Part shown: positions 1 through 31,478 of the stretch, piece by piece
Layout: every line of letters begins with the position of its first letter
Numbering within the stretch: position 1 is the stretch's first letter
NCBI GenBank assembly: GCA_016617785.1
Contig: JADILM010000005.1
Coordinates: forward strand, 1,302,001-1,366,000
DNA from: Sporobolomyces roseus
Lineage: Eukaryota > Basidiomycota > Microbotryomycetes > Sporidiobolales > Sporidiobolaceae
Direction of reading: 5' to 3'
Length of the DNA: 64,000 nucleotides
Translations under genes and position numbers: made by a program
The notes under the pieces: model-generated
What the model saw: the letters and a program-made list of their open reading frames with translations, nothing else
What the model was told of the DNA's origin: nothing
Databases searched by the model: none

Positions 1-1903
1 GCACATCGCTCAGAGCGCGTAAGCTCAGAATCGGCCTCTCCTCGCTCGTGCGGTTTCTCCCAGCTGACGAACCTTCCCTTCGATAGTGCCAAATCGCTTG
101 GTGCGAAATCAGCCGACGATTGGACGACAGCGACTCGTTCAGCAGTCGGAGGAGGATGTACTACTGTTATCGCTTTCGCCGTGCAGCAACGTGGATCTTC
201 GATGCAACAAGCTGTCGACGCATACCACGAATTGGCCAACGATAACACGATTTGCGACTATTCGTTCCATATCATCGTGACGGATCCATCGGAAGAGCAA
301 ATGCACGTTGAGCTACCAAAGTTGATTGAACAAGGAATAACGAGTGTAAAGGTGAGTTCCTTCGCTTCGTCTCATTTGCACGAGACAAGACAATTAACGA
401 GAATCCTGTCTAGATTTATTCGACGTATCCCGCTCTCAAGTTGGACGACACACAGATTCTCGACTGTTTCTATGCCGCCCGAAAGTACGGAGTCACTGTC
501 AGTGAGTCAACTTTTCGCATCGTCGATGTTTCACAATCTCTCGAATTGACGAAATGCGCTTCTCCAGTGGTGCACGCCGAAAACTCTGACATGATCAGCT
601 GGATGACCGCTGATCTCGCCAAACGGGGAATGGTCTCTCCCTGGAACCACGGGACTTCTCGCCCACCTATCGTCGAATCCGAAGCGACGAACCGAGTTCT
701 TGCGTTGGCAGAACTGCTCGATACTCCTGTTCTCTTCGTTCACGTCTCGGCACCGGATGCTTTCAAGGTTATCAGAGAAGCTCAAGGACGGAGGATGTCG
801 GTTTATGCCGAGACTTGCCCTCACTACCTACTCTTGACGGGTGAAGCGATGAGAGCTCCTGGTTTCGAGGGTACGTTGATCAGCTTCTCCTCTACATTTA
901 CCCTGTTCTCACACTTGCTCGTGTCTCATAGGTGCGAAAGCGTGTTGCGCTCCACCTTTGCGGGAGAATCCAGCTGATCGCGAACAAGTTTGGAATTCGA
1001 CTTTGAACGGAACCGTAACTGTGCTGTCCTCGGACCACGCCCCGACCAATTACTACGATGAGAGTGGCAAGCAACTCGGGCTTGCGAAGAATCCTACGAA
1101 GAACGAGAGAGGAGATTTCCGATACATGTTCGTCCGATTCGCTACCTTTCCCTGAGCGCAGTTTAAGCTGACTTTCCTCACTCGTCTATAGTCCGAACGG
1201 TCTCCCAGGCGAGTCCCGATATATCCTTTACCTCTGCTCTTCTATCGCTTACCGATTCGCAAATGTCCAGGTGTCGAAACTCGAGGACCACTAATGTGGA
1301 GCGAAGGAGTTTGCAAAGGTGAGCTTGTTCCCGCTACTTCCTTAACGCAATGCTGACCTCACGCAACCATGTAGATCGCATGTCGCCATCCCAGTTCGTC
1401 GAGCTCAACTGCACGAACGCTGCTAAACTTTACGGAATGTACCCTCAAAGTCAGTTCAATCTCGTTTCTCTCACTTCACCACCTTCACTGACGAATAGCT
1501 TCCTCCCTTTCTTAGAGGGAACTATTCAACCTGGTAGTGACGCCGACTTTGTCATCTGGCGAAAATCCGCTGATCGCAGACCCTCGGAAATTACCGTCAA
1601 GAATGTCAGTCAAGCTTTCTCTCCACTTCAACTCGCTTCGACCTGCTGACGCTCCCATGGCTCTCATAGCTTCACTCGGCTTGCGACTATACGCCGTTCG
1701 AGGGTCACTCTATCGAAGACTGGCCACTTCTCACGATTCTCCGGGGCAAGGTCGTTTACGATGGTCAATCGAACGAAGTGACCGGCGTGAAGGGATATGG
1801 ACGGTTCCTCAAGCGAGGGAGAAGCGGCTTGAGAGGACCGACGGGCAAATGGCTGAACGAGTGGAGACCAGATTATGTAGAGGAGCAGGAGCGAAATCGC
1901 TAG
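1..1903 (+). CDS. D-hydantoinase / dihydropyrimidinase, 5' partial
   Basis: Cyclic amidohydrolase that opens the ring of 5-substituted hydantoins or dihydropyrimidines to N-carbamoyl amino acids. The gene begins left of the window; the first readable exon starts near 85 and the stop is TAG at 1901-1903. Spliced exons give the family hallmarks in order: VKIYSTY (the Lys that is carbamylated, plus the Tyr five residues later that gates substrate; the motif spans the 352-413 intron), VHAEN and VHVSAP (metal-binding His), TCPHY, SSDHAP (metal Asp, 1027-1044), then NGLPGVETR. One intron (1209-1270) is GC-AG. The C-terminus ends in ...EEQERNR with no peroxisomal signal. It converges on the D-amino acid oxidase with 174 bp between stops. 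Pyrimidine catabolism (Pyd2-like) is the alternative role; the neighbours favour hydantoins. Family call strong, substrate inferred. Confidence 0.88.
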
Positions 1904-2077
1904 ATAGAATCGATTTGTAGCTTGTTTTGTACTCACATAGCAATTACTCCTCAGCCGAGAGACTGAATTCCATTCGCAATCGTGTTGCGAAACCAACGCT
2001 TGATCAGCGCTTCAAACTGCGACACGGAATATCGACGAACGATAGTGAAAAATCTTTGCGACAATGCAGAAAGAACG

Positions 2078-3566
2078 CTACAATTTGGCCCGACTCGGAA
2101 GACTCGTCACTTCTCGTACGATCTTTGCAGCTTCCTCAGCGCACGCCCACGCGCATTGCCAGCCGTATCCTCCATGCCCATAATTATGAACGACCTGAAT
2201 CCGTTCACCCAAGTCAGACGATGTCAAGGTTTCCGCTTCGAGGCGAATGCCATCGTCCCTCGTCGGTCGATATCCAACAACAACAGACTTGATGAGGGAT
2301 TCGAGGGGTACAGGTGATGTTGAATGAGGAGGACGAGCGAGAGAAGGGCAAATCTCTAATGCTCTTCGAAGGATGTTGGCGGTCGTTTCAGGTCGAGGTG
2401 ATATTTCCCTATAGAGTAGAGCAAGGAAAGTCAGTCCGGCTCGAATCAGGGGGAGAGAGTGGTATCGAGGTAAGAGCGGAAACAAAAGGAAGAGCAATAA
2501 ATGTCTGATGGAGCTTACCAGTCGTCAAGTTCGCGAGTCCCCCCTACAATGACCTCTCCCGATGCACGAGGAATGATGTACGTTCGCTCACCTCCTTCCC
2601 CTCCCGCGAGTGAGCCAACTTGACGAGTCCAGCCAGTCTTGATCCAAGGTGCATCGAGAACGACGACTTGTCCTCGCACTGGATGCACAGTGCCGTCTCG
2701 AACGTCCGAGAGCTTTGTAGCGCCTATACCAGTACAGTTGACAACGACTAGCGGACGTTGAGCGTACGATGAAGCTTGAGCGAGTGATTCGAGTCGAGGA
2801 ATTCGGCAAGCGACTCCTCCGAGTGAGCTGAACAGACTCATCAGATAAGGCTGTAGATCGTCGATAATCAGCTGATCGTAAAACATAGAGGCAGGGAAGG
2901 AGGAACGAACGAGGTATCGAGCCGGTTCAATCGTTATTGATTCGAATGAAACCGAATGGTCAATCCTGCAGAAGCCAATGCTCGGTCAAAGAGCTCTCTT
3001 TCGTCGAGGTATCGGAGACTCACCCATCAGGAAGAGAGTCCGGGCTATTGATGCGGAACTAGGACGAAGAAGAGAAACGCATTGTCAGTTGGAAACTCGC
3101 AAGGTTTTTGCGAAATCGATCTTTCCGAACGATTCAGCGACTCACGTTCGGCAGTTGTTCGAGTAACCGCAAATGTGTATCTCCCTTGTAATATTCCGTT
3201 TGCGTCAATCTCATGAGGCCTCTCTTCTCTCCTTCCTCCTTGTCCTCACTTTCCTTGCACAACCTCTCGAACGTTCTGAGGTCGAAATAACGCTGTCTCC
3301 AATCCGAGTTGGCAGCGAAGGATAAATGATGTGCCCCTGCCGCTTGACTGGCGTAGAGAGGATCTTGAGGGTCTCCAGGGAGATGTTGAGCGATGAGTAG
3401 GACAGGGAAGCCAAGCTTGAGGATCTCAATACCAGTCGTGAGTCCAACAACTCCAGCCCCTATCAACGAGGTCCGGCTTCAGCTTAGCTGGACGAGAAGA
3501 GAAGAGGAGAAACTCACCAACAACGATGACGGGAGAAGGTGATGAATGAGGATACTGATGCTTCAT
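2078..3566 (-). CDS. D-amino acid oxidase, peroxisomal
   Basis: FAD enzyme that oxidises D-amino acids to 2-keto acids, ammonia and H2O2. Five exons (3566-3518, 3459-3146, 3058-3024, 2965-2519, 2408-2078) join in phase to about 391 residues. Visible signs: N-terminal dinucleotide-binding VVGAGVVGL, interrupted by the first intron; VVNCTGIGA and HPVRGQVV in the middle; VGYRPTRDDG with the substrate-carboxylate Arg; and the C-terminal FAD motif NYGHGGYGWQ. The last residues are SRAKL, a peroxisomal PTS1 tripeptide (AKL), as expected for yeast oxidases that end in SKL-type signals. It is divergent from the D-carbamoylase over a 189 bp shared promoter and convergent with the hydantoinase. It would consume the D-amino acid that the carbamoylase releases. 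The ATG at 3566 is chosen because it directly precedes the Rossmann strand. Confidence 0.93.
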
Positions 3567-3755
3567 GCTTGTTTGTCAGTCGATGGTGGTCTCCTCGGAT
3601 TGCAATAGTGCATTTCTCAAGTAGTTGATGCAAGAGTCAAACTTTCGCCGACGCCTTCGAAACTTTCGCCGACTCGGCCGTCGCCTATCAATCTCCTTCC
3701 CTCAACAACCCTTTCTCTCTCTCCTTTCAAACATCTAACGTCAGCGAACGTCGAT
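3567..3755. promoter_or_regulatory. Shared divergent promoter of D-amino acid oxidase and D-carbamoylase
   Basis: Only 189 bp separate the two start codons. The stretch holds a 14-bp direct repeat, AAACTTTCGCCGAC, at 3639-3652 and 3660-3673, spaced by exactly 21 bp (two helical turns). Overlapping its second copy is CCG-ACT-CGG at 3669-3677, an inverted CGG pair of the kind bound by Zn2Cys6 dimers. A Zn2Cys6 factor is encoded at 8452-11015. The sites are seen; their use is inferred. Confidence 0.5.
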
Positions 3756-5110
3756 ATGACTCGTCTCCTCAAGGTAGCAGCAGCTCAAGTTGGTCGAATC
3801 GATCGCAACACGCCTCGAACCGAAATCATCTCTCGTCTCATCTCTCTTCTCGAACAAGCTGCGTCTCAACATGTCAAGCTCGTCGTCTTCCCTGAAACAA
3901 CATTCTCCACCTTCTTCCCCCGATACCTCCTCGAAGATCAAGAGCTCGAAACGTTTTTCGAGAAGGAGCCGTCGGAGGGTATCGCAGCTTGCGAAACGGT
4001 CTCGTCCTTCTTCGACAAGGCTCGTGAGCTAGGCGTCGATGTCGTGATTGGGTACGGAGAAGCTACGCCTGAAGGGGAAAGATACAACACAGCTTCTTAC
4101 GTTTCGCAAGGGGAAACTGTTGGAAAATATAGGTAAGCTCTCTATCTTCTCTGTTCCTGAGCGAGTTTGGAGCCCGAGCTGAAAGTCTTACGTTTTGTCA
4201 CTACATAGGAAGATCCACTTGCCAGGTAAGCTATCTCAGTCGCTTTCGTCGCTATCGCTCTGATTCGGCTCGTGTACTGATCGAGCTATTATCCACTAGG
4301 CACAATCGAACCTTTCTCCACCGACCCCACAGTCACGAACCAACTCGAGAAGCGATATTTCAAGCCCGGCAATCTTGGTTTCCCTGCCTTTCGAGCACCT
4401 TCGCTAAAATCGACAGTTGGAGGAAACGAATCGCCTATCGTCGGGATGTTGATCTGTAACGACAGGAGATGGGCCGAGGGATGGAGAGTATTGGGTATGC
4501 AGGGTGTCGAGATCGTTTGCATCGGTTATGTGAGTCGTACTTTCGCATCTCATCCAACTTGTCCTGGTCAACCTCGAATATTTCTGTCATAACCCATCGT
4601 CACCTTATCTTCTTCTGCGTGCTGATCTATCGTTCATATCTCTCTCGACAGAACACTACCGCCTGGGCTCCGCAGCTATGGGGTATCGATCCGAATTCAA
4701 TGACCCGCAAAGAAGCTTATGAAGATGCGATGTTTCATCATAAGCTCGTGTGCCAGGCTCACGCTTACACGAACGCTAGTGAGCTCGTCTCTCTCGTCTC
4801 ACACTCGTCTTGCAAAGCCTGACCTTCGCGAACCCGCCGTTTCGATTCTGTAGCTTTCCTGATCACAGCCGCTCGATGTGGAAACGACGACGGCATTCAC
4901 CCCCTCATCACGGGATCCATGATCGTAGATCCTGAGGGTCACATCGTCGCGGAGAATAAGACGGACGGAGATGAGCTAGTCGTCGCTGAGATCGATTTAG
5001 GTGCTTGTTCGCAAGGGAAGACGAAGACGTTTGCTTTCGAGAAACATCGAAGAGTGGAGCACTACGGGAAATTGCTGGAGACGGAGGTGGTGAGGCCGAA
5101 GGAACCTTGA
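3756..5110 (+). CDS. N-carbamoyl-D-amino acid amidohydrolase (D-carbamoylase), copy 1
   Basis: Nitrilase-superfamily enzyme that cleaves N-carbamoyl-D-amino acids to D-amino acid, CO2 and ammonia. Exons 3756-4132, 4209-4225 (17 nt), 4300-4529, 4652-4778 and 4854-5110 give 335 residues, close to the roughly 300 of bacterial enzymes. The catalytic triad is present: Glu47 in FPETT, Lys127 in KYRKIHLPG, Cys184 in LICNDRRW. The Arg pair after the Cys and the downstream FHH (residues that hold the substrate carboxylate in the Agrobacterium enzyme) are also there, which points to the D-carbamoylase subgroup rather than beta-ureidopropionase. It is divergent from the D-amino acid oxidase and convergent with the racemase (180 bp between stops). 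No organelle signal was seen, so it is probably cytosolic. A second copy lies at 22429-23800. Confidence 0.92.
4209..4225 (+). other. 17-nt microexon of D-carbamoylase copy 1
   Basis: Flanked by ...ACATAG and GTAAGC. It encodes the end of the split Arg codon plus KIHLP, which contains the catalytic Lys. The same 17-nt exon exists in the paralogue at 23324-23340. Confidence 0.85.
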
Positions 5111-5290
5111 TCGTCGATAGGCTCATGTAATACCCTCTTTTCTTAATTTTGCTTTCGATTCCTCTCGTCTCGTGAGGGGCTTCATCGCCTGGAAATAAGC
5201 TCCAGTAGACCTGCATCGATCCGACGACTTTTATCGCACGTCGATACATCGGAGGAGATTTGTTCAAGTTGCAAATCTAGGAAAGGAAAT

Positions 5291-6145
5291 CTACTGCTTT
5301 GGAGAATCTGTCGCAATCATGCCAGCAAGGAAGACCAATCCAGCTAATGCCGCGTCGACGACCTTGACGTCGGCTAATCCCGCTTCTCGAACACCCTGTA
5401 AGACTAGCGATTCCATCCCCGCCATCCCACCACATCCCATGATAATGAGATCCGCTCCCATCACTGCCACTTTCGCCGAGGCTTCCTTGATCCTCTTCTC
5501 GACATCGGCTTTCTTCCCAGGGTCTCGTAGCTCCTCGACTTGAATCCCGCTCCTACGCGAGCGAAGAAATGGTATCAGAGAACGAGTTTCGAACAGAAAA
5601 TAATGATGAGGCAGTTTCGACTTACATCGCACTGCCGACAAATCGATCACTTCCTGAAGCCCCGAGGAAGGTTGTGACTCCCTTCTTCAGCAGAGGCTTG
5701 AATCCTTCCCCAGTCGAGACGATACCGAACTGTCTAGAAACCATCAGAGCTTTCGCAATTCCTGATTCGAACATTCCGACGCAAGGTTTGGAGGAGGTCG
5801 GCCCGAGGTGTTCACGGATCATGTGTTGTAGAGGGTGATCAGAGACTACATCGACAAACATCGTCCGTTAGTCTAGAATTCTGCAGAGGAGCGAAGGAAA
5901 GGCTACTCACAGCAGCAAACGAGGAAACCGTCGAATTCTTCGAACGCTCCTGTCTTGACCATTTCATCGAAACATGCTGCCGCCGTCTGGATGCCAGTGA
6001 CGTAGTCTCGAATCGCCGTAGGAGCGTGGGAAGGGGCAGTGAAGTAGTGAAGTTCGCAGTTTGGGGGGCAGTGAGGATCAAGCGATTCAGCGATTCCATC
6101 AGTGATGTCTTTTGTCGAATTGGGGTTGATGATGAGGAGTTTCAT
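5291..6145 (-). CDS. Hydantoin racemase (Asp/Glu/hydantoin racemase family)
   Basis: Interconverts L- and D-5-monosubstituted hydantoins, so that a D-specific hydantoinase can use both. Three exons (6145-5911, 5845-5626, 5552-5291) join to 238 residues, the usual length of HyuE-type racemases. It opens with MKLLIINPNST, the standard family start. The two catalytic cysteines of the two-base mechanism are visible: one in GFLVCC (Cys77/78, just before the first intron) and one in MGCGGM in the last exon. Yeast Dcg1 and bacterial allantoin racemases belong to the same family, so allantoin is an alternative substrate; the adjacent D-carbamoylase and hydantoinase favour hydantoins. It is convergent with the carbamoylase. 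Confidence 0.88.
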
Positions 6146-6263
6146 TGTGAGTAAGAGTGGGGTTTGAAGAGAGATTGCGAGTTGCGAAATGCGAAGGATT
6201 CGTCTGCGAAAAGTCAATCTCTTTCTTTCGTCAGTGGCTACTCCAGCAATTGCAGAAGGGCAC

Positions 6264-6743
6264 CTATATCACACGGAGCTTCTTTCGATCCTCGCCCTCG
6301 CCCTTAAAGTCCATTCTCCACCATTTCCATTCTTCATCTCCCAACTCTTGGTCCACCTCATTCGCCTCTAGCTGTCTCTCCAGCACCCACTCTACAGTAC
6401 GACTAGCCAACGATAAAGCTCTGCCACCATTCAGTACCTCCCTCGACTTCACTCGCCTCGGGATTCCCATCTCCGCTTCCTCCGCTTTTCCGAGGTTCAG
6501 TTCAGTTGGAATGTGGACACTCACGATTGTTATGGAGCTATTGTATGCTGAGACTGGATGTACTGAAGTGAAGGACGGCTCTGGAGCAGGTCGCTTGCTT
6601 GAGAAGAGGTTGAATCGTATCGTGGAAAATGCCGAGCGGATAAGAAAACGATTTCGAATTCGGGTGAGATTCTAGCTGAAGGGTTCAGAGAATGTGGAGC
6701 TCACTCACGGCGCCGAAGCGAGGGAATCAACCGCCGTCGGCAT
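6264..6743 (-). CDS. Possible small hypothetical protein between racemase and aldolase
   Basis: An open frame of about 120 residues. The best model starts at the ATG at 6743, uses a GTGAGT donor about 35 nt in and an acceptor in front of KRPAPEPSFT, then runs to a stop at 6264. The C-terminal half is charged and helical-looking (RTVEWVLERQ, ELGDEEWKWW). Without the intron the upstream frame is Arg/Phe-rich and mitochondrial-presequence-like, so the N-terminus is uncertain. No family was recognised. It could instead be untranslated leader between the racemase and aldolase starts. Included because an open, charged frame of this length in a 690 bp divergent gap is unusual. Confidence 0.3.
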
Positions 6744-6835
6744 TCTCTTCACAAGGGTCGCAATCTTCCTCCACTCCTCAGCCTCTCCTCTACATCGCAC
6801 CTCACATTACCGCTCTCGAACAGCTCAGCAACACC

Positions 6836-8130
6836 ATGGCTCCTATCGCAATCGATTCACAAACTTCGAGCTCTCCTTCGCAAGCTCTCAAATCGACTCA
6901 CACCGCAACGAAGCAATCTCTCGATAATCTCGTCGATGACCCATTGGCGCGTACGTATCGTTCAAATCGAGAAGGGACGATCAAGCTCAGTACGAGGTAT
7001 CCTGACTTTGAAGACGATAAGTATGCGAAGAGACAATGGATCAAAGTGAGTTTTGCTTTCCCTGTTCTCTCCCCTTCTTTCGAACGCTGACGATTCAGCT
7101 CGACTCAGGAACATCTCGCTGGAGCATTCAGATGGTAAGCACAATAATGCGCCCATACCGCTGAGAACCGAGTTCTGATCATTTTCGCTCGATTCCCAAA
7201 CCCTTCGCAAACTCGATGCTTTCTTTCCCTTTACAGGTGGGGAAAACAAGGATTCGGAGAAGGAGTATCAGGACATATCACTGTCGTCGATCCTGTACTT
7301 GAAGGTCACTATTGGATGAATCCCTTCGGACGACACTTCTCGCAAATCAGCGTTTCCGACCTCGTTCTCGTATCTCCCGATGGCAATCCAACTGAACACG
7401 GAGCTCAGCTTCCTATCAACACCGCTGGCTTCCACATTCGTGAGCTCTCTCTTTCTCCTGAGCCACAACTAATCTCAAGCTGATTCTCCTCGTTCACAGA
7501 TTCTGCGATTCACAAAGCACGACCCGATGTAGCCGCTGCAGCTCACTGTCACTCGATTAATGGAAAGGCCTGGTCGGTGTTCGGGAAACCTATTGAGCTG
7601 TTGACACAGGACTCGTGCATTTTCTACGATAATCTAGTAAGTCTTCGTTTTTCCTCCTCATCTTGTCAACGTTCGTCATTGACGTCCATGCTCGTCATAT
7701 AAAGGCCGTATACGCAAACTTTGGAGGTATCGTTCTGGCTCAAGAGGAGGGTGAGAACATTGCAAAGGCGTTAGGACCAAAACATCGAGCAGCGATTCTC
7801 CAAAATCATGGATTGCTTACCCTCGGGGACACTGTCGACGAAGCGATGGCGCTGTTCACAAACCTCGATCGGTTATGTGGCGTTCAGCTGAGAGTCGACG
7901 CTGCTGCTGCTGGGAGTGGATTGGTGAAATCGATCATTGACGACGAGGTGAGCTTGTATCGATCCTCCCCTCGACCTATGCAGTCGCTGAAGTCTATGGG
8001 TGGGCTATAGGACGCCAAATTCACTGCCGATACTCTCCAGAATCCGGAAAATCTATACGTGAATCAACAAACGGAGTACAACCTGCTCGTCGCAGAACTT
8101 GAGGGAACGAGGTTGGATTTCTTGAAGTAA
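6836..8130 (+). CDS. Class II aldolase/adducin-domain protein
   Basis: Zn-dependent aldolase-like fold seen in fuculose/ribulose-phosphate aldolases and many fungal proteins of unknown substrate. After a variable N-terminus come WIKEHLAGAFR, GFGEGVSGHITV, WMNPFGRHF, the metal-binding HCHSINGKAWS, and ILQNHGLLT with a further metal-ligand His. The reading frame crosses introns near 7049, 7135, 7440, 7636 and 7948 and ends in ...RLDFLK with TAA at 8128-8130. ATG 6836 has an ACACC context. It lies between the racemase and the Zn2Cys6 regulator inside the hydantoin gene set, but no known hydantoin step needs an aldolase. It may act on a side-chain product or be a passenger. Family call firm, reaction unknown. 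Confidence 0.82.
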
Positions 8131-8451
8131 TCTCGGAAGGGTTGGTTTCATGTAGTGGCTAAATCTGTACATGTTTGAACTCTGCAAGCGGTCCTTTTCG
8201 CCTGAGTATCACGTTTCGTCGCGAGATGCGATTTCAAGTCTAGTTGCGAAAACTTTCTGCTCTTCTTCACACCTCTCTCTCGACTTCCGGCTTTCTATCG
8301 CTAGGATGCAGAAGCGATACAATCTAGACGCAGACAAGCTCCTTATCGCTCGGCCGACTAATCTCACTATTCTATTCATCGTTTGAACGAATTAAACCGA
8401 TTCCTCGCTCCTTCCAACTCGACACGAGCTCCTCAGCGAATAGCTGCATCG
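8131..8451. promoter_or_regulatory. Upstream region of the cluster transcription factor
   Basis: This stretch of 321 bp holds no clear gene. It contains a GATAAG-type site on the minus strand near 8343 and the octamer CGGCCGAC at 8351-8358. The same octamer lies upstream of the second D-carbamoylase (23915-23922). A shared regulator is inferred only. Confidence 0.3.
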
Positions 8452-11015
8452 ATGCAGCGCACTTATCAAAGTCCTACAAGCGATCGACCGCCTCCAGCTC
8501 AACGTGCAGACGATTCAATCCCAGTTCAAGCGATCAACTCGTCAACCGTTTCAAACACCTCAACGGGAGCTGCAGACCACAGTGCAGGCTCAAGTCTGGT
8601 GGTAGGTACGATATCGGATCAAAGTGGAACCGCAGAAGGGGCTAGACCTCTGAGAGTGAGTCGTTCTTCACCTCATCTAAAAGGGGACGAAACCAACCCT
8701 CGTCCTCCCTTCTTAGTCAAAGAAACAACGTCCATGTGACAGATGTAGACACAGGAAGAGTCGCTGTGCGATCTCGAGGCCTGGAGAAGCTTGTACCGAA
8801 TGCTCGTGAGCACCTCACTCTCAATTCTCGATTTATTGTGCCCGATTGACCTTCTATTCGCCATCTTCCTAGCCAGACCAACAACGAATGTACCTTCATA
8901 CTTCCTCCGCCCGCTCGTGCCAAGAAAGAACCACTTCCCGATGTCCTCGACCGTCCTCCTGCTCCTTCGACATCTTCTCACGATCCAGCTCTACCTCTCT
9001 CGACCTCCATGAGTCCTGAACACAGACCCTCGAAACGTCTTCGGCAGGCGTCGCCTTCACGACAAGATTTCCTTCGACCTAGCGGTACAGGAAGTGAAAC
9101 GTTCTCGCTCGATCAAGATCTTCCTGCCGACGTCGAGCCGTCTACAGTGACAGCGACACTCACGGACGACCTACTCACCTCGACTTCGAACACGGTCGGT
9201 CCGCCAAGCAAGATGGTTTCTTCAGCTAGTCAGACGACTTTCATCACTTTCGGACGACGACCCTCTTGTAAGATCCCTTTCCTTTCTACTCTACAGTAAC
9301 GAGTGATCCTCACGCCTTGCTTCATGCAGATCGAGTGTCCAGTCAAGAAGAAGAAGTCAAGCTGCTTCGTCAGATCCGCTCCTTTCTCGCATTCGCAACT
9401 TCGAATCGTAACGAAGGCGACTTTCTCGATCGCTACTTCGAACACAACCAACCCTTCTTCCCTGTCCTTCCAACTTCGCCCTCGCAAACCTTCGATACGC
9501 TCCCGCCTGGACTTCAAGCCCTCATCTTGGCCGAAGCACTAGCGAACTTTCCAGGATTCCGAGCAGCAGGACGAGAAGCACAGCGGATTGCGAGGGAATC
9601 ACGGATCGCCGAGAAGATGCTGGATGCTCAGCCAAAGCTGTCAAGTATCGCTGCATCGTTAGTCGAGCTCAATATGGGAATGGATCCGAGAGGCGATTTC
9701 CTGCTGCTTTCGAAGGTGCGCCAGGTCGCTCTCTCCTGCCTCGAAGCACAGTCGCTGACAACAATGTTGCAATCCGCAGACTATCGCACACGCTCAGCTG
9801 CTCGGTCTTCACATCGATTGTCAAGGTTGGAAAGCGCTACCAGTATGGGAGAAGTCGCTTCGAACACGCTTATGGTGGATGTTGCGAACTCAGGATGCTT
9901 GGTGAGCCGTCATTCTCTCTTTTGCACTCTTGCCCAAGAGTGCGTGTCGACTGAATCATTTTCGCAGGTCATCGTTCCTCAACTCTCGTCCATCTCACTT
10001 ACAAGCCGGCAACACGACGGTTGGGCTCCCTCGTTTCCCGTCAAGCAGCGACACCATCGACGACAGCTATCTCGGAGGTATCGCATTCGGCTGCGCGTGT
10101 CGGCTTGGAATCGTCGTCGCTCGATTGCAGGTCGAGGTTTCGACACTCGACCGTTACGGCAATTCCTCTAGAGCTGAGTCTTGCGACTCAATCGAAACGG
10201 ATCTCAACACGATGAAAGAAGGACTCAAAGATTACTATGAAATGGCTTCGTCTCGCCCTCCCGGAATGGACTCCGTTCTCTTCCTGCTCCTCGCTTTGCG
10301 ATGTATGGTTCGACGCATCGGTATCGAAATCCGAATTGGTATCGGAGCTTCCTTCGCCCCGGACCATCCTACTCTCTCGGTTTTCGCTGAACTCGTCGAA
10401 TTTGTCGAGAGTTTGAGCGGTCCCTCGTTTGATGCGAACCAGGTCTATCCCAGTTGTGAGTTCCACCATTCTCCTCTCTGCTCTTAAGAGTCGATACTGA
10501 TGACGACGAGGTCTATAGACGCATCTCACGTCTTCTCTTCTGTCCTTTCCTCGCTCGTTCGCCTCTCTCTCGCTTACGCCGCCTCAAATCCGACAACTTC
10601 GTCGACACTTCCCGTTTCTTCCGTTCTCTCCTCTTCGCCAATCAACCTACTCTCGAGACTCGTCCGCTCGATGGTTCACCTTCGCACCGTCCACCAATGG
10701 GACCTCGTCGACTCTGCCCTCGACCGAGCGGCAAGCGTGACCGCTCGACTGGAGGAAGCCGGAGCAGCAGATTATCAACCGGTTATCTCTGCGCTGCAAG
10801 GAACCGATCCTGTCGCTCACAACAGTACTGTCGATACCGGTTTCCTCGACACTCTCGCCGCTCTCGCTGCCCAACCTTCTCGCTCCCTCACATCTGTCGA
10901 CACCGCTCCGCTCAACGTAGAGGATCTCGGCGATATCAGTCAGTGGTTGAGTGTGCTCGATGAGGGACCTTCATGGGAAGACGGGATCGATTGGAGACTG
11001 TTTTCGTCAGGTTGA
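8452..11015 (+). CDS. Zn2Cys6 fungal transcription factor, candidate regulator of the hydantoin genes
   Basis: Nuclear DNA-binding regulator. Exon 1 (8452-8655) is a Ser/Pro-rich leader. Exons from 8717-8805 and 8873 encode the binuclear cluster CDRCRHRKSRC...CTEC...C with spacing C-X2-C-X6-C-X8-C-X2-C-X6-C. A short Arg/Lys-rich linker follows, and then a fungal-specific transcription factor domain with AHAQLLGLH, CQGW and LRTRLWWMLRTQD. The Trp of DAW is split by an intron. The C-terminal part is Ser/Leu-rich and ends in an acidic, aromatic tail (SWEDGIDWRLF), a plausible activation segment. It sits between the aldolase and the permease, all on the plus strand, so pathway-specific regulation is the simple inference. 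Confidence 0.87.
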
Positions 11016-11529
11016 GCTGGATCTTTGTATCGTTAAGCACAACTTCTTTTGCAATTTTTGCATACTTTTTTACTGCTCTCTGAGCCCTTATCTCTGAGTA
11101 CTGCTTTACACAGCGAGCGCCCCGTGAGAGAGGAGAAATCTGTTATCAGCGAACGAGGTAACTTGCATTCTCGCTCCTTCGAAAGCTTTCTCAGCTTACG
11201 CTCTTCTCCCTTGATTCCAGGCAACAGATGACCGTCGAGATCACGCCGCCGCTGTCTAGGCGCTGGAATGGTCAACTTGCGGCAAACTTGCGGCAAACTT
11301 GCGGTTGAGCTGACTCGACCGAAAATCCGGTTGAATAGTTTTTTTTATTCTTCAGGAACAATCAATTTCTTGGGATCCCTTCGAGGCTGACCGGATCGAG
11401 TGTACCGGTTTATCTTCGCCCTAGGCGAACGCGTGCTGCTGTATCGGGGGACTGCAATCCTTGAATGCGATAAGAAGATTGACATGTCTCTTTCTTCCTC
11501 TTACCTTCGCTTCTCCTCAAACGCCAACA
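11016..11529. promoter_or_regulatory. Permease upstream region with CGG-rich repeats and GATA sites
   Basis: No gene seen. It contains TTATCAG (minus-strand GATAA) near 11137, the 11-bp tandem repeat described separately, an everted CCG...CGG in CCGAAAATCCGG near 11319-11330, ACCGG elements near 11390-11410, and GATAAG at 11469-11474, about 55 bp before the start codon. GATAAG sites are what fungal nitrogen regulators bind, which would fit a nitrogen-source permease. Confidence 0.4.
11275..11307. repeat. Three tandem 11-bp units containing palindromic TTGCGGCAA
   Basis: Units start at 11275, 11286 and 11297, each reading ACTTGCGGCAA (the third diverges at the end). TTGC-G-GCAA is a near-perfect palindrome with a CGG core. 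An 11-bp period puts all three on one face of the helix. They lie about 225-255 bp upstream of the permease start. Confidence 0.8.
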
Positions 11530-13997
11530 ATGCGACAATCAGTCACTCACCTCGTCGACAAACTACGGATCCCTCTAGAGATTACCAGTGTGGTCGTCAC
11601 GAAGGATGGATCAATCCGCACCGCCAACGATGGAGACAAAGCAGATGATTGTCTCGAAATCACGGCCACTCGCGATATGCTGCCGATCCCTCGAGACTCT
11701 CCCATGAGGACGTGGGGCGTATTCTCGATCCTCGGATTTTTCGTCGCAGAAGGTGAGCTTTCCTTCTTCCTTCGATGCTTTCGCCTCTCTTGCTGTTCTA
11801 TCGCGGGCTGACATTCGACGTGTTGGTCTACAGCTTTCAGTATTAGTCAAGTGAGCTTGCCCTGCTCTTTCATCTCGAATCTAGCTTGTCGTACTGACTT
11901 CTCTCCTCGTTTCAATAGTACCAAGTTGCTTCGAGCAGCGTTGCAGCTGGTCTCTCGCCGGGAGCAACAATCGGTGCTGTCTTGCTGGGTCACTTCATTG
12001 TTGCCTGCGCCGCTTCAGCCAGTGCGTGGGTCGGAGCGCGATGGGGGATCAACTTCCCTTCGTACGGAAGAACAGCTTTCGGCATCCGAGGAACGTATCT
12101 CGTTGTCTGTGTTAGAGCCGTAGCTGCTATCATCTGGTTCGGAACTGTGAGCTCTAAGTGCTCTCCCATCTTCGTATCATGGCGCTGATACTGTCTCCTC
12201 TTGACGCCTCGCCGATATTTAGCAAACTTGTTCGTCGAAACTTTCTCCGCTACTCCTCACACGTAACATACTCATCGGTTCTTTCTCTCGTACTACATAG
12301 ATCAAGGAGGGCAATGTGTGCAAGTCATGCTTGGTGCAATCTGGCCGAGCTTCAGAACATTTCCAAATCACCTTCCCGAAAGCGCCCATGTCACCTCGTC
12401 TCAGCTTCTCTGCTACTTCATCTTCTTCATCATTCAGCTCGGTTTCCTCTGGATCCATATCTCAAAACTCCACTACCTCTTCATGGTCAAGTAAGCCCTC
12501 GACTTTTTCTCGTGCTGTCTATATCCGATCGACCGATTTCTCTCCCTTTTCTCGAATCACCGTCTTCTCGCTTTTCCTGAATCGAACTGACCCGTTCATC
12601 CCTCCTCCTAGAATCGTCCTTATGCCTATCTTCGGAGTCGTTCTATTTGGTTGGGCTGTCGGATCTGCTGGCGGTTTCGGATCGGTCTTCAACAAACCGA
12701 CGAACATCGTCGATGGACGTCCCGTCGCCGTCGTATTCTTTTCTGCGATGTCTGCTGCGATCTCACCAAAGGCGAGTCTTTTCCTTCGCTCAAGATGAAT
12801 TCCACTAACGAGAAGATACCATTTGCAGGCAACTTTAGCATTGAATATGCCAGACTTCACGCGTACGTACTGTCCATCTCTACAAGTATCCGTAAATCAC
12901 GCTTCGAGTACTTGCGAAAACGTCGAATCTCGAAGATTTCCAAGTTTTGCAACTCATACCATTCCACCGACACTCTTCAAAGTGTCCGCTTGACTGACTC
13001 TGCTCGACTCGTGTGCAGGTTATGCGAAGTCTCCACGCCATGTCGTTTGGGCGAACATGTTTTCCCTCACTATTCTCGTCACTCTCGCTGCTCTCCTTGG
13101 TGTCGTCGTCACGTCAGCCGCACAAACGATCTACGGAGTCAGTACCTGGAATCCTCTTCAAGTGAGAACCTTTCCCCTACGTTGTTTGTTGCTCGAGGGA
13201 CTTATCGCCGTCATTTTTCTCTCAGGTTTCCGCACTCATGGGTAATCGAGCTGCTCAATTCTTTTCGGCTCTAATGTGGGCCTTCGCCGCTCTCGTCACG
13301 AATATCTCAGCGTGAGTTGCAAGTCTCCTAAAGTAATTGTAAGGAGCTGACGTTTAATTCTTCGCAGAAACTCGACCGCTGTCGGAAACGACTTGATGGT
13401 CATCTTCCCCAAGTGGATCTCGGTTCGACGTGGTCAGTACTTGACGGCCCTCATCGCCACCGCGTGCTGTCCTTGGATCATTCAGTCAACGGCGAAAACT
13501 TTCACAGCGTTCCTCAGGTGAGTTTTCCTTTTCTCGTCGTCATCGCAATCTCTTACTGACAACCAGACGCTCTCAGCGGGTACACGGTCTTCCTGGCACC
13601 GCTAGGCGGCACCTTGATGGCAGAGGTCTTCCTCGTTCGCAAGATCAACATCGCTCTCCCCGACCTCTACATGCGAAATAACTCGGTGTACTGGTACTGG
13701 AAAGGTGTCAACCCTCGAGCCGTCGCTGCACTCATCCTTGGAGTCGTCCCTACCCTTCCGGGCTTTATCCGCAACATCAATCCCAAGCTCGGAATTCCCG
13801 TCGGTTCAACTTACGTTACTGCTGTCGTTTATCCCGTTGGAGCTCTCACCGCAGGACTCTCATTCTGGATCCTCTCGACCATCTTTCCTCCCGTTCCTCT
13901 CCCCACCTCTTACTCAACCGTCTCCTACACTGGTTCGATCGACGAGGAGGATACGAAGGAGAAAGATTTGGCGACGTCGAGCATCGTTGCTGTATAA
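11530..13997 (+). CDS. NCS1-family nucleobase/hydantoin permease
   Basis: Plasma-membrane cation symporter of the family that holds fungal uracil, allantoin and uridine permeases and bacterial Mhp1 for benzyl-hydantoin. It has a hydrophilic N-terminus, then MRTWGVFSILGFF, the helix 3 region RWGINFPSYGRTAFG, IIWFGTQTYQGGQ, the helix 6-7 region SAAISPKATLALNMPDFTRYAKSPRH (canonical NCS1 ADFTRYA-like motif), and STAVGNDLMVIFPKWISVRRGQ. About 12 membrane helices can be counted. The gene has two microexons (17 nt at 11834-11850; 7 nt at 12223-12229) and a GC-AG intron (12772-12828). The stop is TAA at 13995-13997. Its place at the end of the hydantoin genes suggests hydantoin or a related ureide as substrate; allantoin or pyrimidines remain possible. 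Confidence 0.9.
12223..12229 (+). other. 7-nt microexon of the permease
   Basis: CAAACTT lies between ...TATTTAG and GTTCGT. It supplies Gln, Thr and the first base of Tyr in WFGTQTYQGGQ, a conserved NCS1 motif that cannot be rebuilt without it. Confidence 0.75.
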
Positions 13998-30039: not shown

Positions 30040-31478
30040 TTACGATCGGGAAGCACCGTCGGTGGATCCGTAGTTGGCATCTCGGTTGCCTCCGAGGAGG
30101 CTGGCACCGGAACCGTCAGATCGCTTGTTGGAGGTCTGCGAAACATGAAGATTAAAAGTCAGATCGATTGTTTCGCTCGACAAGCTTCGGAGGTGAACGT
30201 ACCCATCCAAGACGAGAGTAGTCGAGCTTCTCGATGGCGAGAACGTGGATGAAGCAGTAGACGGGCTTGGCGAGAACGTCAAGGACACCGTAGAAGACCA
30301 TCTCGGACTGCGATGAAAAGAAAATCGTCAGTTTCGGGCTTTTTCGTGGAAGGAGAGCAGACTGTACTCACGTTAGGAGTAATTGCGTTAGCACCATCGG
30401 ACAGACCCCAACTACACAGACAGACGAGAGAGGTCAGTACGAGTCTTGCGGTAGAGGAGAAGCAAGAGAAGACGGAAAATGAGGAAAACGAGAAAAGTCG
30501 GAAAGACAACTCACGCGATGGGGTAGAGGAGCCAGAGAACGGAGAGGATGAGAGTCGAGGTCATGTAGGCCTTGGAGTAGTCGGAGCCGAGCTTGGTGAC
30601 CGAAGCACGTCCGTCGACGAGGAGGATCTTCCAGATACCGACGAGGGCGAAGCATCCGAAACCGAAGAATGCCCACTTGTAACCGTCAGGCATGAGGGCA
30701 CCGACGAGACCGGTGATGATCTATAAGGTCACGAAATAGAAACGAGGAGGATCAGCGAATTGTTCGGGAGAGAAACCTTCTTCTTTCCCGAAATTTGGCG
30801 ACTCACCATGAGGACGTCGAGGAAGAGGAGGTTGAAGGTCTTGGCGAGGGGAAGGCCAGTCGCGAGGGAAAGTTCGAGGAGAAGGAGAGGAGTGGTGAAA
30901 GTCCAGTCGATGTATCGTGCGTACCAGACGGAGCGAGTAGGGTGGAGGACACCAGCTTTGATCCACTTCTTTCCGAGGACACCGCCTCGGATGTACTGAA
31001 CGGGAACAGGAGCACTTCCGTAGTCGGCGGCCATGGCATAGTCTGAAGAGAAAGAACGATGTCAAGTCAGCGTCGTAATTCGACGAGGTTTTTCGCAATC
31101 AAACTCGAGCTTACAAGAGATGCAAGCGGTGAGGCAGACGGCGGCAGCCAACTCGTGGAAGGCCCTTTCACCAGCTGGTCGACGGGTTCCCATGAGGTAA
31201 AGACCGATGCAAGAGAGACCCATGATGGCGGAAACGACCCATTGGAACTTGTGAGCGTTGTGGGTGATGTCGATGTTGGCACCGAGCTGTTTATTTACAA
31301 GGAAAGAGTGGGCAGGTATCAGTAAAAGAGAAGTCTGAGAGGAGAAACGTTTTTGATTGCGGAGCCGTCATTTGATCGAGAGACGTCTCCTTGCGATCGA
31401 AGTGAACGAGAGACTTACACCGTAGTATGAGGCAGTCTCCATACCGTTTGAGATGAGGGTGTTGACTTGTTCAAGCAT
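30040..31478 (-). CDS. Microbial (type I) rhodopsin, putative light-driven proton pump
   Basis: Seven-helix retinal protein of the fungal opsin family. Exons join to about 300 residues: MLEQVNTLISNGMETASYYG, then the helices. Helix C reads ARYIDWTFTTPLLLLEL: the counter-ion Asp and Thr of bacteriorhodopsin (D85, T89) are kept and the proton donor (D96) is Glu. Helix G reads LDVLAKPVY, with the second counter-ion Asp and the Schiff-base Lys. This DTE set with an intact Lys argues for an active pump, not an opsin-related chaperone-like protein such as Hsp30/Yro2, which lack the Lys. The tail is short and Ser/Gly-rich with a basic patch. Plasma-membrane location likely. Start chosen at ATG 31478, first in frame; stop TAA at 30042-30040. 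Confidence 0.93.

Follow-up and report, generated by a model that had tools for sequence, protein, structure and literature searches.

A candidate hydantoin-type pathway, probably for acidic substrates, encoded by seven neighbouring genes of the basidiomycete yeast Sporobolomyces roseus

To our knowledge, hydantoin pathways are known as bacterial. We describe here seven neighbouring genes (G1 to G7) of the basidiomycete yeast Sporobolomyces roseus whose families support what a preliminary description of this DNA had proposed, namely a clustered set for uptake, racemisation, ring opening, decarbamoylation and oxidation together with a candidate regulator. The genes lie at the start of a stretch of 64,000 nucleotides (the window), which is C5:1302001-1366000 (contig JADILM010000005.1 of assembly GCA_016617785.1) in a 22.4-Mb genome of 15 contigs; 20 kb of upstream flank were added to the analysis. 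We read the cluster as a eukaryotic version of the hyu pathway of bacteria, for which acidic hydantoins or N-carbamoyl acids would be the probable entry, and give this reading a probability of about 0.62. The features concerned are the following (window positions, negative ones lying upstream):

-253..1903 (window part 1..1903), + strand: G1, dihydropyrimidinase / D-hydantoinase family, 509 amino acids (aa), 11 exons; Pfam Amidohydro_1
2078..3566, - strand: G2, D-aspartate-oxidase-type flavoenzyme, 391 aa, 5 exons, C-terminus -SRAKL; Pfam DAO
3567..3755: divergent spacer between G2 and G3, 189 base pairs (bp), with ACTTTCGCCGAC twice, at 3641 and 3662
3756..5110, + strand: G3, N-carbamoyl-D-amino-acid hydrolase (D-carbamoylase) family, 335 aa, 5 exons; Pfam CN_hydrolase
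5291..6145, - strand: G4, Asp/Glu/hydantoin racemase family, 238 aa, 3 exons; PF01177 (Asp_Glu_race), 130.7 bits
6836..8130, + strand: G5, class II aldolase/adducin family protein, 312 aa, 6 exons; PF00596 (Aldolase_II), 152.8 bits
8452..11015, + strand: G6, Zn(2)Cys(6) transcription factor, 726 aa, 7 exons; Zn_clus 23.6 bits, cut-off 21
11274..11304, + strand: perfect 11-bp tandem repeat AACTTGCGGCA, 2.8 copies, 225 bp before the G7 ATG
11530..13997, + strand: G7, NCS1-family permease, 552 aa, 11 exons; PF02133 (Transp_cyt_pur), 319.2 bits
22429..23800, - strand: G3b, second D-carbamoylase gene, 338 aa, 83% identical to G3

The spliced models, built by hand with exon choices guided by homology, are predictions from genomic sequence. 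Between -253 and 13997, the seven intron-containing genes are intact, each model running open from ATG to stop with its main Pfam family above cut-off. All seven adjacent genes of the preliminary description are present and intact after splicing, each with the Pfam family stated for it; of the extent it had given, 1..13997, the end coincides with the stop of G7, whereas the start has to be moved, as G1 begins outside the window with an ATG 254 bases before it (L006:9747, which is C5:1301747 within one base). Two introns are of the GC-AG type with the same donor GCGAGT (1209-1270 in G1 and 12772-12828 in G7), the G7 model needs a 7-nt micro-exon at 12223-12229 to keep its frame, restoring a WFGTQT motif, and an alternative in-frame ATG is possible upstream in G5.

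The membership of the cluster is of the hyu type, with racemase, hydantoinase and carbamoylase genes standing together and one gene (G2) between G1 and G3. A chance gathering is unlikely because hydantoinase-, racemase-, carbamoylase-, oxidase- and NCS1-type genes have few copies genome-wide; the odds come to about 3e-10, an order-of-magnitude figure that assumes some 7,500 genes and a gene set picked after the fact. In the genome search, the sole other match to G1 was a distant relative on C7 (35% identical over residues 219-420), no second match to G4 was found, the only matches to G3 were G3 and G3b, and three oxidase loci were counted, G2 included; NCS1 genes occupy at least four loci, one of them being G7.

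Every one of the 11 best solved relatives of G3 is an N-carbamoyl-D-amino-acid hydrolase (up to 232 bits). Its residues E47, K127, C184, R187 and R188 correspond to a Glu-Lys-Cys triad and a CNDRRW motif, in columns that are invariant in 10 fungal relatives; we take these residues, like the kept residues of the other cluster enzymes below, to have the catalytic roles assigned to them here. Among the best 120 of 3,098 relatives, named ones come from many fungi, headed by Sporobolomyces pararoseus (83%) and S. salmoneus (82%) and followed by Rhodosporidiobolus, another Sporobolomyces and Rhodotorula; a limited literature search found no statement on their physiological role. A 56-row tree, midpoint-rooted for drawing only, separates its 14 bacterial rows from a single group of 42 rows, made up of G3, G3b and 40 of those 120 relatives (P0024 among them). 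Given this grouping and the place of G3 with Sporobolomyces, we rejected the idea that this yeast alone had acquired G3 by horizontal transfer.

The second carbamoylase gene, G3b, which the preliminary description had not mentioned, lies 17.3 kb from G3 and 8.4 kb beyond the cluster end. The two proteins are 83.3% identical (279/335), and all four intron positions and phases are common to their genes. With a dN of about 0.10, a dS of about 1.43 (near saturation) and a dN/dS of about 0.07, G3b is, on these estimates, under purifying selection. In the tree it pairs with G3 (100/98); the two closest Sporobolomyces sequences stand beside this pair (92/51), and the branch of G3b is four-fold longer than that of G3. 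G3b keeps the D-carbamoylase motifs, and the Asn of the GYNT motif of G3 has become Val; the gene probably still functions, and its specificity may have shifted. By eye, its neighbours look unrelated (a septin-like protein, an LRR protein and a parvulin-like protein).

The flavoenzyme G2 had been proposed to be a general D-amino acid oxidase (DAAO); we find it D-aspartate-oxidase-like instead. It scores 288.6 bits with the D-aspartate oxidase 9vpf, as against 151.6 with the DAAO 7ct4 and 104.7 with RgDAAO, and the loop TRQVGSL(G/A)GGEGG is common to G2 and 9vpf. Its -AKL end resembles what we take to be a PTS1 motif (peroxisomal targeting signal type 1), in accord with the peroxisomal oxidation suggested earlier. 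R247, R277 and R329 of G2 align with R216, R237 and R278 of human D-aspartate oxidase (DDO; 6rkf), so that all three of these active-site arginines are present in G2, whose neighbours are hydantoin-type genes. In the human enzyme, as set out in PMC8260693, Arg216 binds the side-chain carboxylate of D-Asp, Arg237 stands at the gate and Arg278 acts on the alpha-carboxylate. The position of R247 is Cys in 7ct4, RgDAAO being only loosely aligned there (Cys in one alignment, a gap in another); the second arginine position is Tyr in 7ct4 and RgDAAO, and Met in the D-aspartate oxidase 9vpf itself. Of the oxidase loci outside the cluster, the one at C6:671157-671783 also keeps the first acid-site arginine in the alignment, and the one at C5:582269 looks by eye like RgDAAO or a classical DAAO. 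The cluster oxidase seems to be of the acid type, although a general-type DAAO seems to be present elsewhere in the genome. Because G2 is of the D-aspartate-oxidase type, acidic side chains (5-carboxymethyl- or 5-carboxyethyl-hydantoin) are favoured over the benzylhydantoin-type substrates considered before, and the end product of the pathway would probably be an acidic D-amino acid. Specificities read from sequence call for caution, since in Cryptococcus gattii those of the recombinant Dao enzymes and the growth phenotypes were imperfectly matched, as reported in PMC4489021.

G1 passes the equivalog model TIGR02033 (dihydropyrimidinase / D-hydantoinase) with 459.8 bits for a cut-off of 393.25, and stays below the subfamily model PRK13404 (565.8 vs 647 bits); H65, H67, K160, H192, H248 and D325 stand at metal or catalytic positions, in columns common to nine bacterial and two solved relatives. 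In G4, C78 and C192 fill the two cysteine positions of the racemase family. The sole solved relative of G7 is the hydantoin permease Mhp1 (69 bits), whose ring-contact residues we take to be W117, Q121, N318 and W220; W153, Q157 and N364 of G7 match the first three, and the position of W220 is occupied by P259.

The two remaining genes are G5 and G6. G5 exceeds the NF004855 cut-off (275.4 vs 255 bits) and has one weaker genomic relative, on C1; as a class II aldolase, it has no place in the proposed pathway, and neither of the two bacterial neighbourhoods of its relatives that were viewed (2 of 30 listed; 131 records matched) adjoins hydantoin genes. G6, in which Fungal_trans reaches 22.4 bits, just below its cut-off of 23, is a candidate regulator of the set. 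The repeat AACTTGCGGCA before G7 has about one helical turn per copy, each copy with one CGG (three in all), and is a possible regulator site. Over six regions, GATA and CGG counts were not clearly above background, this repeat excepted.

The bacterial D-system of hydantoin racemase, D-hydantoinase and D-carbamoylase has been described, and D-amino acids are produced with its enzymes (PMC7431475). What the bacterial hyu system and this yeast share is the adjacency of these three enzyme families and a transporter; in contrast to the bacterial system, the yeast has intron-rich, separate eukaryotic genes on both strands, to which a Zn2Cys6 regulator, an NCS1 permease, a D-aspartate-oxidase-type flavoenzyme and a class II aldolase are added. 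No earlier description of such a eukaryotic cluster was found in a limited literature search, and the words hydantoin and carbamoyl are absent from the main text of PMC8260693 and PMC7831105. Among representative prokaryote contigs, a G3 relative is encoded in 1 of 53 candidate stretches, and 6 of the 369 genomes of that prokaryote class have one at E<=1e-40, the starting genome counted. Plasmids gave 49 records matching G3, and 8 of the 30 listed were viewed with their neighbourhoods: carbamoylase, hydA (annotated dihydropyrimidinase) and Asp/Glu racemase occur together in three of the eight (Salipiger, Ketogulonicigenium and Sulfitobacter, for example), the racemase adjoins the carbamoylase on a Roseomonas plasmid, and a Terrarubrum plasmid carries an Asp/Glu racemase and two amidohydrolases about 5 kb from it. 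The one neighbourhood viewed for a G4 relative (1 of 30 listed; 113 records) holds amidohydrolase, dihydroorotase and hydantoinase/carbamoylase-family genes. Carbamoylase and racemase Pfam domains are found in one chain in 3 of the best 120 G3 relatives (of 3,098), from Friedmanniomyces (P0067, P0103) and a metagenome (P0096), and G4 groups with the C-terminal halves of these fusions with moderate support (84/85). In this yeast, the same two families are separate, convergent genes, whereas the fusions are gene predictions and could be merged neighbours.

If the cluster works as a hyu-like pathway, G7 would import a hydantoin-type ureide, G4 would interconvert its enantiomers, ring opening by G1 would give an N-carbamoyl amino acid, from the D form of which G3 (perhaps also G3b) would strip the carbamoyl group, and G2, probably in peroxisomes, would oxidise the D-amino acid to a keto acid and ammonia, the set being probably regulated by G6. 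The preferred product would probably be D-aspartate or D-glutamate, and the entry compound 5-carboxymethyl- or 5-carboxyethyl-hydantoin or an N-carbamoyl acid corresponding to one of them. We infer these substrates, the order of the steps, the compartment, the regulation and any role of G5 from the gene content, frames, families, residues and copy numbers observed. A narrower version, tentative and in our view rather doubtful, is that 5-carboxymethylhydantoin, or N-carbamoyl-aspartate derived from pyrimidine precursors, would be racemised, opened and decarbamoylated to D-aspartate, which peroxisomal oxidation would turn into oxaloacetate and ammonia.

Several results weigh against a hydantoin pathway. 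The best solved relative of G1 is the dihydropyrimidinase 2fty, presumably PYD2 of Lachancea kluyveri, with 433.7 bits vs 340.4 for the D-hydantoinase 1nfg, and in a tree whose branching is poorly resolved both G1 and 2fty stand outside the group formed by 1nfg and seven bacterial rows. G1 and 2fty have the same residues at the catalytic positions and align through the C-terminal extension; G1 differs in having carbamoylase and racemase partners and in the loop after HxH, of other length and sequence (an intron of the model lies there). In the earlier assignment as a D-hydantoinase, the family is upheld by TIGR02033, and the name should be taken as that of a family rather than as a measured specificity. 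For G4, previously termed a hydantoin racemase, family and cysteines are borne out, but not a closer kinship with that enzyme: it scores 46.7 bits with the allantoin racemase 5lfd vs 34.8 with hydantoin racemase, both weak, and reaches no NCBIfam model. For this reason we file it only under the wider Asp/Glu/hydantoin racemase family. Moreover, its identity to the racemase halves of the fusions is no more than 26-32%, and the half in P0096 has no second cysteine region. In three of the eight plasmid carbamoylase neighbourhoods, the viewed stretch contains no hydA and no racemase of this family, and none of the eight has an annotated class II aldolase or a gene whose name is that of a D-amino-acid or D-aspartate oxidase; one of them encodes a FAD-dependent oxidoreductase of unspecified kind. 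Of the four plasmid relatives of G1 whose neighbourhoods were viewed (4 of 15 listed; 202 records), two have allantoinase PuuE and ureidoglycolate lyase genes alongside, the Klebsiella and Variovorax dihydropyrimidinases near these genes being 47-48% identical to G1; the other two have an adjoining Asp/Glu-racemase-family gene, very distant from G4. Finally, k-mer counts over the regions before G1, between G2 and G3, between G4 and G5 and before G7 gave no convincing shared promoter motif.

Some of these points would suit the salvage of allantoin-like ureides, in which G4 would be an allantoin racemase, G1 would open allantoin or a related purine ureide, G7 would be an allantoin-type permease, and G3 and G2 would dispose of a ureido amino acid. 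The relationship of G4 to 5lfd and the PuuE neighbourhoods are in its favour, as are the 184.7 bits of G7 to the allantoin permease PRK11375, a score below the cut-off of 620. We nevertheless hold it to be unlikely: the usual ureide route, which has no D-carbamoylase or D-aspartate oxidase step, seems to be encoded elsewhere, by an allantoicase gene on C9 and an allantoinase-like gene on C7, both away from the cluster. This C7 relative of G1 has allantoinase AllB as its best model (327.3 bits for a cut-off of 357.85, from an incomplete gene model), and G1 is far under the same cut-off, with 243 bits. Reductive pyrimidine catabolism, with G1 as an ordinary dihydropyrimidinase for dihydrouracil and the other genes as unrelated neighbours or accepting beta-ureido acids, would agree with the match to 2fty and with the dihydropyrimidinase description of the NCBIfam model that G1 matches; yet it would leave the racemase and the D-amino acid oxidase superfluous, and G3 is much more similar to D-alpha-carbamoylases than to other enzymes of the nitrilase family. 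Moreover, no dihydropyrimidine dehydrogenase was found in an exon-by-exon search, which could miss a gene: PF01180 (DHO_dh) occurs at one locus only, which is taken as dihydroorotate dehydrogenase, although dihydrouracil could also enter directly. We regard this alternative as very unlikely. Uracil or allantoin breakdown is the poorer account because the genome searches gave a single hydantoinase and a single racemase of these types and no dihydropyrimidine dehydrogenase, and allantoinase-like and allantoicase genes lie elsewhere.

Finally, the cluster could serve general D-hydantoin utilisation, with neutral or aromatic side chains and a broad G2. The family memberships of the cluster genes and the relationship of G7 to Mhp1 would allow this, but the acid-site arginines of D-aspartate oxidase in G2, the separate classical-DAAO-like locus at C5:582269 and the proline of G7 at the position of Mhp1 W220 make it quite unlikely in our opinion; the pathway for acidic hydantoins or N-carbamoyl acids is the reading we retain.

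The genes around the cluster have no visible link to it. Upstream, there is a low-complexity protein with no Pfam match and then, two genes from the cluster, an HbpS-like PF03928 gene (L006 ~6600-7300, - strand); the downstream neighbour is an RS-rich protein. Further upstream, L006 1-6240 and L007 (+ strand) hold at least two similar gene copies, MATH/BTB-like by eye, and L007 encodes a large predicted protein at window -19670 to -15512 (+ strand) that looks by eye like a Dicer-like RNase III. A bacteriorhodopsin-like protein (PF01036) is encoded at 30040-31478 (- strand).

A complete eukaryotic set of this kind would give a new source of enzymes and would open the natural role of D-carbamoylases and D-aspartate oxidases in fungi to direct testing. 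If true, the acidic-hydantoin pathway would provide D-aspartate oxidase with a dedicated upstream partner and the cell with a physiological source of D-aspartate.

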